Shown here: one piece after another, positions 16,326 through 24,152 of the stretch
How the letters are laid out: every line of letters begins with the position of its first letter
Position numbering within the stretch: the first letter of the stretch is position 1
NCBI RefSeq assembly: GCF_000188195.1
Contig: NZ_GL831075.1
Span: forward strand, 1-44,304
DNA from: Succinatimonas hippei YIT 12066
Lineage (GTDB): Bacteria > Pseudomonadota > Gammaproteobacteria > Enterobacterales > Succinivibrionaceae
Direction: 5' to 3'
DNA length: 44,304 nt
Translations under genes and position numbers: made by a program
Notes under the pieces: generated by a model
Told to the model about the DNA's origin: nothing
Seen by the model: the letters and a program-made list of their open reading frames with translations, nothing else
Databases searched by the model: none

Positions 16326-16637
16326 ATGCAAAAAATTATTTTATCTTTATTATGTCTCTTGCTTCCGTTAGCGTCATTTGCCGATGTGGGAGCAAATTGT
16401 ACCTTTAACGGTATTCCTCTGTACGGAAAAGTAAAAATAGTCAATGCTTTTGCCGATATTAAAGTAAAAAAGGTAAATTCTTTTCCCGATTTAAAGGTTA
16501 AATTCGTGTCGGCTTTTCCTGATTCATGCGGAAAGTGGCAGATAGTTAATTCGTTTCCGGATTTTACAGTGCAGTTCGTTAATGCTTTTGAGGATGTCAG
16601 TATTAAAGAAGTTTCGTCATTTCCGGGAGTAAATTAA
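16326..16637 (+). CDS. Small exported protein of six 11-residue repeats
   Basis: This 103-residue protein has a signal peptide (cleavage likely after SFA, residue 19). Residues 35-102 are six tandem copies of an 11-residue unit with pattern x-V-x-x-V-[NS]-[AS]-F-x-[DG]-x: KVKIVNAFADI, KVKKVNSFPDL, KVKFVSAFPDS, KWQIVNSFPDF, TVQFVNAFEDV and SIKEVSSFPGV. A two-residue CG insert sits between copies 3 and 4. Alternating hydrophobic residues suggest a small beta-solenoid in the periplasm. C25 and C68 could form a disulfide. I do not recognise a named function. No SD is visible, because the greA terminator T-run sits there. A good terminator follows. Confidence 0.75.
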   Translation: MQKIILSLLCLLLPLASFADVGANCTFNGIPLYGKVKIVNAFADIKVKKVNSFPDLKVKFVSAFPDSCGKWQIVNSFPDFTVQFVNAFEDVSIKEVSSFPGVN

Positions 16638-17100: not shown

Positions 17101-17787
17101 ATGCCGGCACGTAAAAGAACCGCAAGTCAGACCAGATGGCTTAAGGAGCATTTTTCCGACCCTTATGTAAAAGAAGCGCATAAGCGCGGATTAAGGTCTC
17201 GTGCCAGTTTTAAGCTTGAAGAACTGCAGCAGCGAGATCGACTTATAAAAGCAGGAAATATAGTGGTTGATTTAGGAGCAGCCCCCGGCGGTTGGTCGGA
17301 GTTTGCAGTTAAATGCGTCGGAGAAAAAGGCAAAGTCATAGCCTGTGATATTTTGCCGATAAGACCGATCCGCAATGTAACCTTTTTACAAGGCGATTTT
17401 AGAGATGAAGCCGTGTTTTTAAAGCTTTATTCCATGATAGGTGTCGGTGCTGATGTCGTGTTGTCTGATATGGCTCCTAACATGTCGGGAACTACGGCAA
17501 TCGATCAGCCGCGCGCTATGCTTCTATCGGAGCTTGCTCTTGATATGGCTCGACGCGTGTTAAGAATCGGCGGCTCTTTTGTTGTAAAAGTTTTCACGGG
17601 AAGCGGCTCTCAGGAATATCTTGCCGAATTAAGAAAAGATTTTTCCACGGTTAAAGTAAGAAAACCTGATGCGTCACGTGATCGTTCGCGTGAGGTATAT
17701 ATGGTGGCGACCGGTTTTAAAGGTCATCCTTTAAACGGAGTGGCTCCTGACAAATTTGATGAAACCGATGCCAAAATCGGTAATTAA
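17101..17787 (+). CDS. rlmE: 23S rRNA 2'-O-ribose methyltransferase RlmE
   Basis: RlmE (FtsJ/RrmJ) methylates U2552 of 23S rRNA using S-adenosylmethionine. This protein has 228 residues with the SAM-binding motif [14 protein letters not shown] and the K-D-K-E catalytic tetrad at K38, D123, K163 and E198, one residue off E. coli numbering. It lies 12 bases before ftsH, as in E. coli. I looked for a sigma-32 promoter upstream, as known for E. coli rlmE-ftsH, and saw no convincing match. Confidence 0.97.
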
Positions 17788-17799
17788 TAAAGGGGAATT

Positions 17800-19797
17800 A
17801 TGGCCAAGAACCTTATATTGTGGCTTGTTATTGCCGTTATTTTGATGTCTCTCTTTGATTCTTTTACGACAAGAGAGTCGACCGGACGGACTATGGATTA
17901 CACGACTTTCGTACGTGAGGTCGAACAAGATCAAATTCAGGAAGCTGTTTTTGACGGTCAGGTTATTAACGGTATAAGGCGCAGCGGTGAAACTTTCGTT
18001 ACCGTTATGCCTATTCACGATAACGCTATTTTAAATACTTTGATTTCTCATAATGTGAGAACTTCAGGTACCAAGCCGGAGGAAACCAGTCTTCTTACTT
18101 CTATTTTGATTTCCTGGTTCCCGATGCTGCTGTTAATCGGCGTGTGGATTTATTTCTCGCGTCAAATGCAGGGCGGAGGAAAGGGCAATCCTTTGTCTTT
18201 CGGTAAGAGTAAGGCGAAGCTTTTAGGCGAAAATCAGATTAAAACCACGTTTGCCGATGTTGCAGGCTGCGATGAGGCTAAAGAAGATGTCGAGGAGTTG
18301 GTTGATTTCTTAAAAGATCCGTCAAAGTATCAAAAATTAGGCGGACGTATTCCTCGCGGTGTTTTGATGGTAGGGCCTCCCGGTACCGGTAAGACTTTGT
18401 TGGCAAGAGCAATTGCCGGTGAAGCCAAAGTACCGTTCTTCTCGATTTCCGGATCTGATTTCGTTGAAATGTTCGTTGGTGTCGGTGCTTCACGTGTTCG
18501 TGACATGTTCCAAACAGCCAAAAAGAATGCCCCTTGCATCATTTTTATCGATGAAATTGATGCCGTAGGTCGTAAGCGCGGCGTCGGTTTAGGCGGCGGA
18601 CATGATGAACGTGAACAGACCTTAAACCAGCTGCTTGTTGAAATGGACGGTTTTGAGGGATTTGAGGCGGTTATCGTTATTGCAGCAACAAACCGTCCTG
18701 ACGTTTTGGATCCTGCTTTGCTGCGTCCGGGACGTTTTGATCGCCAGGTCGTTGTAGGTTTGCCTGATGTCCGCGGTCGTGAACAGATTTTGAAAGTTCA
18801 TATGCGTAAAGTTCCTTTGGGATCTGACGTTGACGCCGCAGTTCTTGCTCGCGGAACTCCCGGCTTCTCCGGTGCGGATTTGGCTAACTTAGTAAACGAG
18901 GCAGCATTGGCTGCAGCTCGCGCTAATTTGCGCGTCGTTTCCATGCAGCAGTTTGAAGAGGCTAAAGATAAGCTCTTAATGGGTGCGGAGCGTCGCTCTC
19001 TTGTAATGAACGATCATGAAAAGGCCAATACTGCTTATCATGAAGCAGGGCATACGATTGTCGGACGCTTGGTTCCCGAACATGACCCGGTGTATAAAGT
19101 ATCGATTATTCCCAGAGGCAGAGCTTTAGGCGTGACAATGTACCTTCCGGAACAGGATCGCTACAGCCAGTCCAAGCAATACCTTTTATCAAATATTTCT
19201 ACTTTATTTGCAGGTCGTATTGCTGAAGAGATGATGTTCGGCGAAGCTGCGGTAACTACAGGGGCCTCAAATGATATTGAACGTGCAACGGACATTGCAC
19301 GTCGTATGGTTACACGCTGGGGCATGAGTAAGCGTTTGCCGCCGATGCAGTTTGATCAAGATAGTGAGCGCAGTATGTTCCTGGGCGGCGGTACTACTCA
19401 GACGATGCCGTTGTCGGATAAGACTACTTTGATAATTGATGAGGAAGTCAGCAAGATCATCAATTCCTGCTATGAAAAAGCGGAAAAACTGCTTCAGGAA
19501 AACAAAGACATTTTAGAGGCTATGAAAGAAGCCTTATTAAAATACGAAACTTTGGATGCCGAGCAGATTGATGATTTAATGGCGCGTCGTCCGTGCCGAG
19601 CACCGTCATCAAGTTCCAAGGATAATGTAGGCGGACAGACTCCGAATGCAGGTAATGCGTCGTCTTCCAATCAGGGGCAAACATCACAGCCTCCTAAAGA
19701 AGAAGGAACACAAAACGGCGATTCTTCAAATAACAGCGATGTTCCTAAAATCAATGAAGAAGGCGCTGGAGATAAGGAAAACCCTTCTCAGAATTAA
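17800..19797 (+). CDS. ftsH: ATP-dependent membrane protease FtsH
   Basis: This 665-residue inner-membrane AAA+ metalloprotease has an N-terminal membrane helix (about 5-20), a periplasmic domain, and a second membrane helix (about 105-122). The AAA module has Walker A GPPGTGKT at 192-199, Walker B (IIFIDEIDA) and the arginine-finger region RPGRFDRQV. The protease domain has the zinc motif HEAGH at 414-418. The last 60 residues are a Ser/Asn/Gly-rich disordered tail, longer than in E. coli. In enterobacteria FtsH degrades sigma-32 and LpxC. It is followed by a clear terminator. Confidence 0.98.
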
Positions 19798-19806
19798 AAA
19801 TGAACT

Positions 19807-19830
19807 AAAGCCGTTTTTTAGACGGCTTTT
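19807..19830 (+). terminator. Terminator hairpin between ftsH and the folP-like gene
   Basis: AAAGCCGT (19807-19814) pairs with ACGGCTTT (19822-19829), followed by a T. It lies just before the folP-like start, so it may only partly stop read-through. Confidence 0.75.
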
Positions 19831-19859: not shown

Positions 19860-20702
19860 ATGAAGCTTCATCTTAAAGGCGAGGATCTTGAACTTTATTC
19901 TCCCCGTATTATGGGGGCCCTTGTAGTTCATCCCGGAGAGATAGGATCCGTAGAGGATTTTGTTAGAAAAGCTAAGGAAATGCAGGAGGATGGTGCTGAT
20001 TTTATCGAAATCGGTCTGCAGGTAGAGGAAGGTATTCCTGAAGAAGCTGATGAACTTACAAAACTCGTTCCAATTGTTAAAGCCGTAGCGCAAAATACGT
20101 CTTTATATGTGGCAATTACAACAAAGTATCCGTCAGTGATGAAGTCGGCTGTAGGTGCGGGAGCATGTCTTATCATCGATCCTGATGCATTAAAAGCTAA
20201 AGGAGCTCTTGAGACTGTTGCAATGCTTAAAGTTCCGGTATGTCTGGTTTTTGATCACAATATAGATTTTGACACAGAAGGATCTCTTGATCCTATGGGT
20301 GACATCTCTGCGTATTTATACGAAAGAATTGATGCCTGCCTTAATGCCGGAATCGATAGACGTAATTTGTTAATAGATCCTTCTTTAAGTCAGTCAGCTC
20401 CGATTGAATCTAAATTAAAACTTATAGGACGTCTTGAGACGCTTAAAAGCTTTGCTCTTCCGATGACAATGGCAATGCCTCGCTCCATTCCGCATGCGGA
20501 TAATTATTTAAATGAGCATTTTTCTGCTGCAGTGGCAGCTTGTCTTTTTTGCGTTAACTCCGGAGTTAATATTATAAGAACTGAGAGAGTTGCGGAGATG
20601 GCTTTGGCACTTGACACTTGGCAGGCAGTTAATAAAAGTGCTCGTCCGTTTAAGCTTACTAAGGCTATTGCTTCAAGATTCAAGCGTAAGCATGCAAATT
20701 AA
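19860..20702 (+). CDS. folP: Dihydropteroate synthase homologue with degenerate active site
   Basis: This 280-residue intact frame lies between ftsH and glmM, exactly where E. coli has folP. It aligns along its length with dihydropteroate synthase (MKLHLKGEDLEL at the start, PVCLVFDH, AGIDRRNLLIDP, GVNIIR). The functional motifs are changed. The pterin loop NVTPDSFSDGG is VVHPGEIGS (22-30) and shortened. DxGGESTRPG becomes EIGLQVEEG (50-58). SVDT becomes AITT (85-88). DPGFGFGK becomes DPSLSQSAP (173-181). The catalytic SRK lysine is gone (MPRSIP, 206-211), and RxHD is RTERV (240-244). Only D173 and R240 remain. It reads as a pseudoenzyme or repurposed TIM-barrel. Residual synthase activity is unlikely. 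Confidence 0.85.
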   Translation: MKLHLKGEDLELYSPRIMGALVVHPGEIGSVEDFVRKAKEMQEDGADFIEIGLQVEEGIPEEADELTKLVPIVKAVAQNTSLYVAITTKYPSVMKSAVGAGACLIIDPDALKAKGALETVAMLKVPVCLVFDHNIDFDTEGSLDPMGDISAYLYERIDACLNAGIDRRNLLIDPSLSQSAPIESKLKLIGRLETLKSFALPMTMAMPRSIPHADNYLNEHFSAAVAACLFCVNSGVNIIRTERVAEMALALDTWQAVNKSARPFKLTKAIASRFKRKHAN

Positions 20703-20731: not shown

Positions 20732-22075
20732 GTGAAGCGTAAGTATTTCGGTACCGACGGTGTACGCGGGCGTGTCGGACAATATCCTATAACCCCTGAT
20801 TTTGTCTTAAAACTGGGTATGGCTGCAGGAAAAGTCCTTTCAAGGAAAAAAGGCGGCAAGGTTATTATCGGCAAGGATACCCGTCTTTCAGGCTATATGC
20901 TTGAAGCAGCTTTAGAGTCGGGATTTAGTGCAGCAGGTGTTTCTACCGTTCTGTTAGGACCGATGCCCACCCCTGCTATTTCTTATCTTACTAAAGCTTT
21001 CAGAGCTGATTTAGGTGTTGTGATAAGCGCTTCGCATAATCCCTATTATGATAATGGAATAAAGTTCTTTTCCCGAGAGGGAACTAAGCTTCCTGATGAG
21101 GTGGAGCTTGAGATTGAGAAAATACTGGAAAGCGATATTGTGCTGGCCGATTCTGCTGAATTCGGCCGCGCTTATCGTCAGGAAGATGCTCCGGGACGTT
21201 ATATAGAGTTTTGCAAGAGTTCATTTGCTAATCATATGAGCTTAAGCGGATTAAAGATTGTTATCGATTGTGCCAACGGAGCTACCTATCATGTAGCTCC
21301 GATGGTATTTAGAGAGTTAGGCGCTAAAGTTATTACCATTGGAGATCGTCCTGATGGCATCAATATTAACGACGGTGTCGGATCCACTCATCCTGAGGCT
21401 TTAATAGAGAAAGTTTTAGCGACGAAGGCCGATTTGGGTATTGCTTTTGACGGTGACGGTGATCGAGTGATGATGGTCGATTCTCACGGTCATCTTTTAG
21501 ATGGTGATGCACTTTTATATATCATCGCAAAAGATCGTTTTGTTCAAAATAAATTACACGGCGGAGTCGTCGGTACCTTAATGTCAAATTTAGGTCTTGA
21601 ATTGGCATTAAAACGTGAAGGCATCGAATTTACCAGATCTGCAGTGGGTGATCGTTACGTAATGGAAACTCTGCTTGACAAAAAATGGAATTTAGGCGGA
21701 GAAAACAGCGGTCACATCATCTGTCTTAATTATGTTTCTACCGGCGATGGCATTGTGTCGGCTTTGCAGGTATTAAAGGCAGCAATTCGTCAGGGCAAGT
21801 CTCTTGAGGATCTGGTAAGATCTCTTGATATGTTCCCGCAGGAGCTTGTTAATCTGCGTTTGTCGGCAGGTTTTGATGCTTTGTCGGATGAAAAAGTTTT
21901 ATCTGAAGTTAAAGCTGTGGAAAATGAACTTGGTTCTCGCGGACGCGTGTTGTTGCGTAAGTCCGGGACAGAGCCGGTGGTCCGTGTCATGGTTGAAGGC
22001 GAAGATCGTGAATATGTGCATCGCTTGGCTCAAAGAATTTCCAATGTGATTCGCCATCAGGCGGAAGAAGCATAG
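20732..22075 (+). CDS. glmM: Phosphoglucosamine mutase
   Basis: GlmM converts glucosamine-6-phosphate to glucosamine-1-phosphate for peptidoglycan and LPS precursors. The protein has 447 residues with [13 protein letters not shown] at the start, the phosphoserine loop [14 protein letters not shown] with S101 (E. coli S102), the metal-binding DGDGDR, and the sugar-binding GGENSGHI. The C-terminal [15 protein letters not shown] binds phosphate. It starts with GTG, preceded by AAGGA, 29 bases after the folP-like gene. Confidence 0.98.
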
Positions 22076-22145: not shown

Positions 22146-22499
22146 ATGTACGAGATTGTTATTGTTGTTTTTCTTTTAGTCGCCGTTGCCATGGTTGCTT
22201 TAATTTTGGTTCAGCAAGGTAAAGGCGCAGGCATGGGGGCATCTTTCGGTGCCGGTGCTTCTAATACTGTATTCGGTGCAGTCGGTTCTGGTAATTTTTT
22301 AACCCGCAGCACATGGCTTTTGGCAATCGTGTTTTTTGCCATCTGCTTATTTATCGGTTGGTTGCAGAAAGATCATTCCGTGCAGAATGATTCTTTTACC
22401 AATATTTCAAGTGAGAGTGAAATTTCAACTCCGGTTGAGAATAAGACTCCCGCTGATGTTCCGACTGTTGATGGTGACGTTCCGTCTGTCGGCGAATAA
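22146..22499 (+). CDS. secG: Preprotein translocase subunit SecG
   Basis: This 117-residue inner-membrane protein has two membrane helices (about 3-20 and 55-75). Between them lies the conserved cytoplasmic loop VQQGKGAGMGASFGAGAS with FGAVGSGNFLTR. A polar Ser/Pro/Asp tail follows. It is the last gene of the conserved rlmE-ftsH-folP-glmM-secG series. The tRNA-Leu gene that follows secG in E. coli is absent here. Confidence 0.95.
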   Translation: MYEIVIVVFLLVAVAMVALILVQQGKGAGMGASFGAGASNTVFGAVGSGNFLTRSTWLLAIVFFAICLFIGWLQKDHSVQNDSFTNISSESEISTPVENKTPADVPTVDGDVPSVGE

Positions 22500-23585: not shown

Positions 23586-24152
23586 TTAGGCTTTACGCCA
23601 TCCGCATTTAGGACAAACGCCGTTTTCATTAAGAGCGACCCCGCAAAGAGGGCAACGTGCTCTGCTTTCTTGAGCAGGAAATTCTGCACAGGCGGCATTT
23701 ACCCCGCTAGTGAAGGTGAGTTTGACGATGTTAAGTTTGTCTTTAAGCAGATCATAGACAATTTTAATCATGCCTTCGACCGTCATAGTTTCTTTAGTTA
23801 CAACCAAGCGGCAATCAGGATAGGCAGTTGCAAGTTCGGTTTTAAAAGCATCACCTTTCATTTTATTAGAAGGAGCGCCGTTTTTAATGCCTTGTTTTTC
23901 GTAAACGTCAAGAATGGCCGGTAAAAGCGGGTCGTCTTCACGCAAAATTAATGCATGATCGAAGTTTTTAAGGACAGCCCAAGCGGTTTTTTGAATTTCG
24001 TTGCAAGGAAATACCATGTTAACTCCGGGTTCAATAGTGTCTTCAACTTCAATAGTTAAAACACCGGTATGTCCGTGCAGATATTGAGCTTCACCTTGGA
24101 ATCCGTAGAAACGGTGAGCGTACTGAAGATCGATTTTGGTAATACTGCGCAT
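23586..24152 (-). CDS. PTPS/QueD-family protein lacking the catalytic Cys, fused to a zinc ribbon
   Basis: This 188-residue protein has the 6-pyruvoyl-tetrahydropterin/6-carboxytetrahydropterin synthase fold signature. The zinc histidines H13 (YAHRF), H26 and H28 (LHGHTG), the DH pair in NFDHALIL, and the pterin-binding glutamate in TMTVEGM are present. The catalytic cysteine, normally CxxxHGH, is alanine (A22 in EAQYLHGH), and the ExxHGH glutamate of PTPS-III is glutamine. The C-terminus carries a CPLC...CPKC zinc ribbon (C167, C170, C180, C183) absent from standard QueD. An SD (AAGGAGA) precedes the start. It follows a Fur-family gene by 27 bases. It may act on a pterin by another mechanism or no longer be a synthase. 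Confidence 0.82.
   Translation of the reverse strand: MRSITKIDLQYAHRFYGFQGEAQYLHGHTGVLTIEVEDTIEPGVNMVFPCNEIQKTAWAVLKNFDHALILREDDPLLPAILDVYEKQGIKNGAPSNKMKGDAFKTELATAYPDCRLVVTKETMTVEGMIKIVYDLLKDKLNIVKLTFTSGVNAACAEFPAQESRARCPLCGVALNENGVCPKCGWRKA

Follow-up and report, generated by a model that had tools for sequence, protein, structure and literature searches.

Sulfonamides act on dihydropteroate synthase (DHPS), the product of folP, and both folate synthesis and resistance are predicted from the folP found in genomes. In solved DHPS the pterin is held by D96, N115, D185 and K221, the equivalents of D56 and R255 pair as a salt bridge, and dimers are formed through helices alpha6-alpha9 (PMC3098144). 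The pABA/pyrophosphate site is built by loops 1 and 2 (PMC6057106). Homologues with doubtful synthase activity are described from mycobacteria. M. leprae folP2 fails to complement an E. coli folP mutant (PMC1971073), and M. tuberculosis FolP2 is predicted to be defective, its deletion raising sulfamethoxazole susceptibility (PMC7809127). By analogy, mycobacterial FolP2 (M. leprae FolP2; M. tuberculosis Rv1207, PDB 2VP8) may be regarded as the closest precedent for the gene described here, which was termed DEG (degenerate folP). In both, a non-synthesising homologue would stand beside a working, motif-complete synthase. The mycobacterial proteins belong to another lineage and another gene position, and with DEG the apparent loss of catalysis concerns the copy which occupies the ancestral locus. 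FolP2 and DEG are not orthologous, as the profile of DEG gave 154 bits to E. coli FolP and 27 bits to 2VP8. A literature search, conducted mostly outside subscription papers, returned no relevant paper on DHPS as a pseudoenzyme or on folP in Succinivibrionaceae.

The window analyzed is the whole stretch of 44,304 nucleotides from Succinatimonas hippei YIT 12066. DEG and its conserved neighbours are arranged in it as follows.

17101-17787, + strand: rlmE (ftsJ), conserved neighbour upstream
17800-19797, + strand: ftsH, conserved neighbour upstream
19860-20702, + strand: DEG, degenerate folP (pseudo-DHPS), 280 aa; assigned from frame, profiles, relatives, model and alignment
20732-22075, + strand: glmM, conserved neighbour downstream
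22146-22499, + strand: secG, conserved neighbour downstream

The frame of DEG is uninterrupted from the ATG at 19860 to the stop codon which ends at 20702, and the gene is situated between ftsH and glmM, followed by secG, as described in the original prediction made from the sequence of the window. The 62-base gap between ftsH and DEG contains a hairpin with an 8-bp stem (19807-19829), possibly a weak terminator or attenuator. The search for RNA families, including riboswitches, gave no match in the window at the gathering cut-off. Further upstream (16326-16637, + strand) a small protein is encoded which starts like a signal peptide, contains an internal repeat of the V-N-S-F-P-D-x-x-V-K-F-V type and gave no NCBIfam match.

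Profile searches placed DEG in the superfamily and outside the synthase models. It scored 83.2 bits with Pterin_bind (PF00809) against a gathering cut-off of 25.5, only 91 bits with the DHPS equivalog TIGR01496 (cut-off 162.6) and 112 bits with PRK11613 (cut-off 455). The Sul1-Sul4 models gave at most 48.5 bits against 600 required, and the second folP of the same genome was far below as well, so neither protein is of Sul type. The best sequence match of DEG was a gammaproteobacterial FolP, and the nearest solved structures were gammaproteobacterial DHPS with about 30% identity. The PF00809 methyltransferases (MetH pterin domain, MtvB-like) share the Pfam family and the barrel with DEG but gave no close match, the DEG profile reaching MetH-type chains with E 0.14-0.46. 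One genome (G037) possesses a third PF00809 match, which was found to be an MtvB-like methyltransferase beside a corrinoid-activator-like gene and unrelated to DEG. In this genome, of the same order, MetF-like, MtvB-like and RACo-like corrinoid-activator genes stand in a row (L051:3025-7467) and form a corrinoid methyltransferase cluster which matches PF00809.

The original prediction had proposed that the structure be predicted. The AlphaFold model of DEG was confident (pLDDT 89.9), and this predicted model was superposed on 6day with Z 33 and an rmsd of 2.0 over 247 residues, consistent with the TIM-barrel fold of DHPS. Functional DHPS (FolP of TIGR01496/PRK11613; E. coli 1AJ0, X. albilineans 6DAY) therefore resembles DEG in fold, length and gene position, and shares with it the equivalents of D185 and R255. 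The difference is in the active site, where DEG lacks most of the pterin, pABA and pyrophosphate ligands. Residues were called from an alignment of 26 DEG and 46 functional FolP proteins, in E. coli numbering. In this alignment DEG is devoid of N22, E60-P64 (loop 2), D96, N115, M139, H140, most of G187-K192 (the GFGFGK loop), K221, S222, H257 and D258. The residues which are kept or newly fixed in the pocket include the following, all from the alignment.

20007-20009, + strand: E50, Asp-to-Glu change at E. coli D56
20376-20378, + strand: D173, equivalent of the pterin-binding Asp D185 of E. coli, kept
20478-20480, + strand: P207, new invariant residue at the Ser of SRK (26/26)
20577-20582, + strand: R240-T241, R255 kept and followed by a new invariant Thr at the Val of RVHD (26/26 each)

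The replacement of most DHPS motifs, as claimed from the sequence of the window, was thus confirmed by comparison with functional FolP, and the motif positions given for it were correct. The further claim that only D173 and R240 remain was slightly too strong. Both are kept, the former in 25 of 26 relatives and the latter in all 26, and so are T88 (T97 in E. coli), D107 (D116), P174 (P186) and R208 (R220). D56 is conservatively changed to Glu in 25 of 26 proteins, S219 is Pro and V256 is Thr in every one, and S94 is Ala (A85 in DEG) in 22. The columns of D96 and K221 show no common replacement and that of N115 shows hydrophobic replacement only. Loops 1 and 2 (N22, T62, R63, P64) which form the pABA/pyrophosphate site in DHPS, are shortened and variable in the 26 DEG proteins and do not match those of a functional FolP. 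Of the pterin-pocket ligands D96, N115, D185, K221 and R255, DEG has the equivalents of D185 and R255 only, so the pterin pocket is incomplete too. Intact motifs in close relatives would have pointed to an error in the present sequence. Every relative in the clade shows the loss, among them isolates and one genome assembled as a single contig, and sequencing error was therefore excluded.

On the basis of these residues, dihydropteroate synthesis is very probably not performed by the copy at the textbook locus, and annotation by locus or by Pfam match would be misleading here. That DEG still makes dihydropteroate with other residues as catalysts appears very improbable. The DHPS fold and the two kept ligands agree with such an activity, but loops 1 and 2 are shortened and variable, D96, N115, K221 and H257 are gone, and a normal FolP is present in the same genome. 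The latter, termed INT, is located at G000:C63:6923-7753 and contains all motifs. It scored 332 bits with TIGR01496, over the cut-off, and 348 bits with the stricter PRK11613, under the cut-off. The genome search thus bore out the earlier suggestion of a second synthase, and we infer that INT is the working enzyme. FolK (two copies) and FolB were also found in the genome. As intact FolP, FolK and FolB are present, the loss in DEG does not lead to the prediction of a folate scavenger, and the scavenging proposed in the original prediction found no support. Sulfonamide insensitivity at the DEG locus, also raised there, would be irrelevant to the cell if INT is the synthase. A zupT-like gene adjoins INT in the loci read, and a uvrD-like gene does so too in G000 and G019. 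In G000 (L052:6923-10876) INT is followed by the gene of the ZupT-like zinc transporter and by that of the uvrD-like helicase, the latter being convergent, and the folP-uvrD neighbourhood was seen again in G019 and G013. No close donor of INT was found among the sampled gammaproteobacterial FolPs, the best of which showed 56% identity.

To understand the distribution of the two genes, PF00809 was searched over 57 Succinivibrionaceae genomes, comprising 40 of the DEG branch, 16 of a sister branch and one other (G013). The DEG branch represents seven genera on the Anaerobiospirillum/Succinivibrio side of the family, and its named relatives include isolates. DEG was found in 38 of the 40 branch genomes and none of the 38 copies has an internal stop. 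The two genomes without DEG are 59% and 87% complete and have no full glmM in the assembly. INT was likewise found in 38 of 40, one of these being a fragment at the end of a contig. In 18/18 loci fetched from relatives DEG precedes glmM, with ftsH on the other side in 16/18, once after a gap of about 1 kb; of the remaining two loci, one is at a contig end and in the other ftsH was not found within 2.8 kb. All 16 genomes of the sister branch possess a single intact FolP along with MetH, and the order ftsH-folP-glmM was observed in 11/11 loci fetched from them. G013 has folP only, adjoining a uvrD-like gene as INT does elsewhere, and glmM was not found in it.

The branches also differ in methionine synthesis genes. 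MetH is present in 0/40 genomes of the DEG branch, in which the PF00809 search gave no frame of MetH length, and full-length MetE is absent from most of them, mostly with MetE-C-terminal-like proteins of about 380 aa instead. In the sister branch MetH is present, and MetE occurs in all but one genome. A link of DEG with methionine synthesis was considered and rejected. DEG also occurs where full-length MetE is encoded (three genomes) and where PF01717 proteins are absent altogether (the two g10 genomes), so the traits were regarded as co-inherited and not as explanatory.

In the phylogenetic tree a branch with support of 100/96 separated DEG and sister-branch FolP from INT and the outgroup FolPs. 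DEG (100/100) and INT (100/99) were each monophyletic. AU tests left the alternatives unrejected, with p from 0.14 to 0.36 (DEG joined with INT 0.19; INT with sister-branch FolP 0.14), and the tree alone therefore does not settle which copy is native. Two signatures, YERIDACLNAGIxR in helix alpha5 and GxLxxFxSF in helix alpha6, are shared by DEG and sister-branch FolP and are absent from INT and the outgroups. The conserved gene order indicates that DEG occupies the ancestral site. As the same locus carries the single intact folP in the sister branch, the native folP is most likely DEG, which INT would have freed from catalysis. The active FolPs of the sister branch (e.g. L007, L016, L020) are thus like DEG in locus and in the alpha5/alpha6 signatures, and unlike it in that their catalytic motifs are all intact and they occur as a single copy per genome.

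DEG is retained under purifying selection. Between close relatives its dN/dS was 0.05-0.17, far from neutral; ftsH or glmM showed 0 to 0.06 in the same pairs, mostly under DEG. DEG also evolves faster than INT, with mean identities of 0.43 and 0.56 over the same 153 genome pairs. The faster rate is what a decaying pseudogene or an assembly artefact might show, but this reading is hardly credible. The frame is open in 38/38 genomes, dN/dS is far below 1, isolates carry the gene, and 23 columns are invariant among 19 DEG proteins which are each 35-55% identical to the window protein. The open frames, the low dN/dS and the new set of invariant residues bear out the retention under selection which had been proposed.

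Mean column entropy was used as the measure of constraint, and the structural parts of DEG to which it refers are as follows.

20295-20345, + strand: helix alpha5, residues 146-162, core of SEFxYERIDACLN(AGIxR), the most conserved helix of DEG
20403-20453, + strand: helix alpha6, residues 182-198, signature RLKxxGRLxTFxSF
20637-20699, + strand: basic C-terminal extension, residues 260-280, a low-confidence predicted helix

Functional FolP shows its strongest conservation in the active-site loops (entropy 0.40-0.66), and its helices vary. In DEG loops 1, 2, 6 and 7 are the most variable part (2.30), and low values are found in alpha5 and alpha6, with the signatures SEFxYERIDACLNAGIxR and GRLxTFxSF. 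These two helices were picked after viewing the DEG alignment, in which they gave 0.90 against 2.01 for the other helices (p 3e-8); only those tests which used the sister branch or INT and the outgroups are partly independent. Sister-branch FolP gave 0.66 against 1.19 (p 2.5e-4) in a small set of 8 thinned sequences, and neither INT (1.68 against 1.54) nor outgroup FolP (1.71 against 1.47) had lower values in the two helices. The pattern was the same when only polar helix positions were taken (DEG 0.79 v 2.34, sister branch 0.75 v 1.45, INT 2.18 v 1.86), exposure being judged by residue polarity in other FolPs and not by solvent accessibility. Constraint has moved in DEG from the active-site loops to alpha5/alpha6. 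The near-invariant residues of alpha5 (S150, E151, Y154, E155, D158, A159, N162) have the spacing of one helix side. Docking of the C-terminal tail on this stripe was considered and weakened, as some sister-branch FolPs have the stripe without a long tail and others have a tail and a weaker stripe; the extension itself occurs in several sister-branch FolPs.

The pocket residues raise another reading, in which DEG is a new enzyme or a small-molecule sensor with a rebuilt floor (E50, A85, D173, P207, R240, T241), alpha5/alpha6 serving stability or oligomerisation. The new near-invariant residues at former pocket columns fit it, and the conserved barrel floor (E50, D173, P207, R240, T241) leaves room for a ligand. 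We consider it unlikely nevertheless. The rim loops, which carry the pABA/pyrophosphate sites, are just the most variable part, the columns of D96, K221 and N115 gained no shared polar residue, and an E-R pair which is buried may have a structural role only. Among the other functions offered in the original prediction, a structural or regulatory role fits best, because constraint moved to alpha5/alpha6 and not to a new rim pocket; a new catalytic role would fit less well.

A regulatory role could also be exerted on INT itself, if DEG formed mixed dimers with it across the DHPS dimer face and tuned its activity or stability. DEG and INT co-occur over the branch, incomplete assemblies aside, and alpha6, a part of the dimer face (PMC3098144), is conserved in DEG. 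The dimer also uses alpha7 and alpha8, which show no special conservation in DEG (1.89 and 1.57), so that the dimer face as known does not by itself account for the constrained face. Moreover, alpha5/alpha6 of INT are unconstrained and the same constraint is found in the sister branch, where INT is absent. Such a partnership is therefore distinctly unlikely.

The explanation that we hold, with modest confidence, to be the probable one is that native folP lost catalysis after INT took over, and that the alpha5/alpha6 face was kept for an older non-catalytic role. DEG would have descended vertically in the lineage as its native folP. INT, acquired horizontally or derived from an old duplicate, would have settled elsewhere in the genome in the ancestor of one Succinivibrionaceae branch and taken over dihydropteroate synthesis. 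The native protein would then have lost catalysis and kept its fold and the alpha5/alpha6 face, whose older second role, most simply protein binding, would now be the sole job of the old copy. As unusual conservation of alpha5/alpha6 is found already in sister-branch FolP, which is still active, this role probably predates the loss of catalysis, and the face may bind a putative protein partner. Only tentatively can this be extended to a general statement, that FolP of Succinivibrionaceae has a second, non-catalytic alpha5/alpha6 function which is present in the active enzyme and was isolated by evolution where another FolP took over synthesis. If true, the pseudo-DHPS would be a natural separation-of-function mutant in which a moonlighting function of this classic drug target becomes visible. 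A pseudoenzyme kept over seven genera, with a constrained face shared with active relatives, makes such a hidden second role of FolP directly testable.

Near DEG, the window encodes a QueD/PTPS-like protein (23586-24152, - strand), which gave 41.7 bits to QueD against a cut-off of 89 and has a C-terminal zinc ribbon. It carries GEAQYL before the HGH motif, without the cysteine usual there. Like DEG, it is a homologue of a pterin enzyme with changes in the active site.
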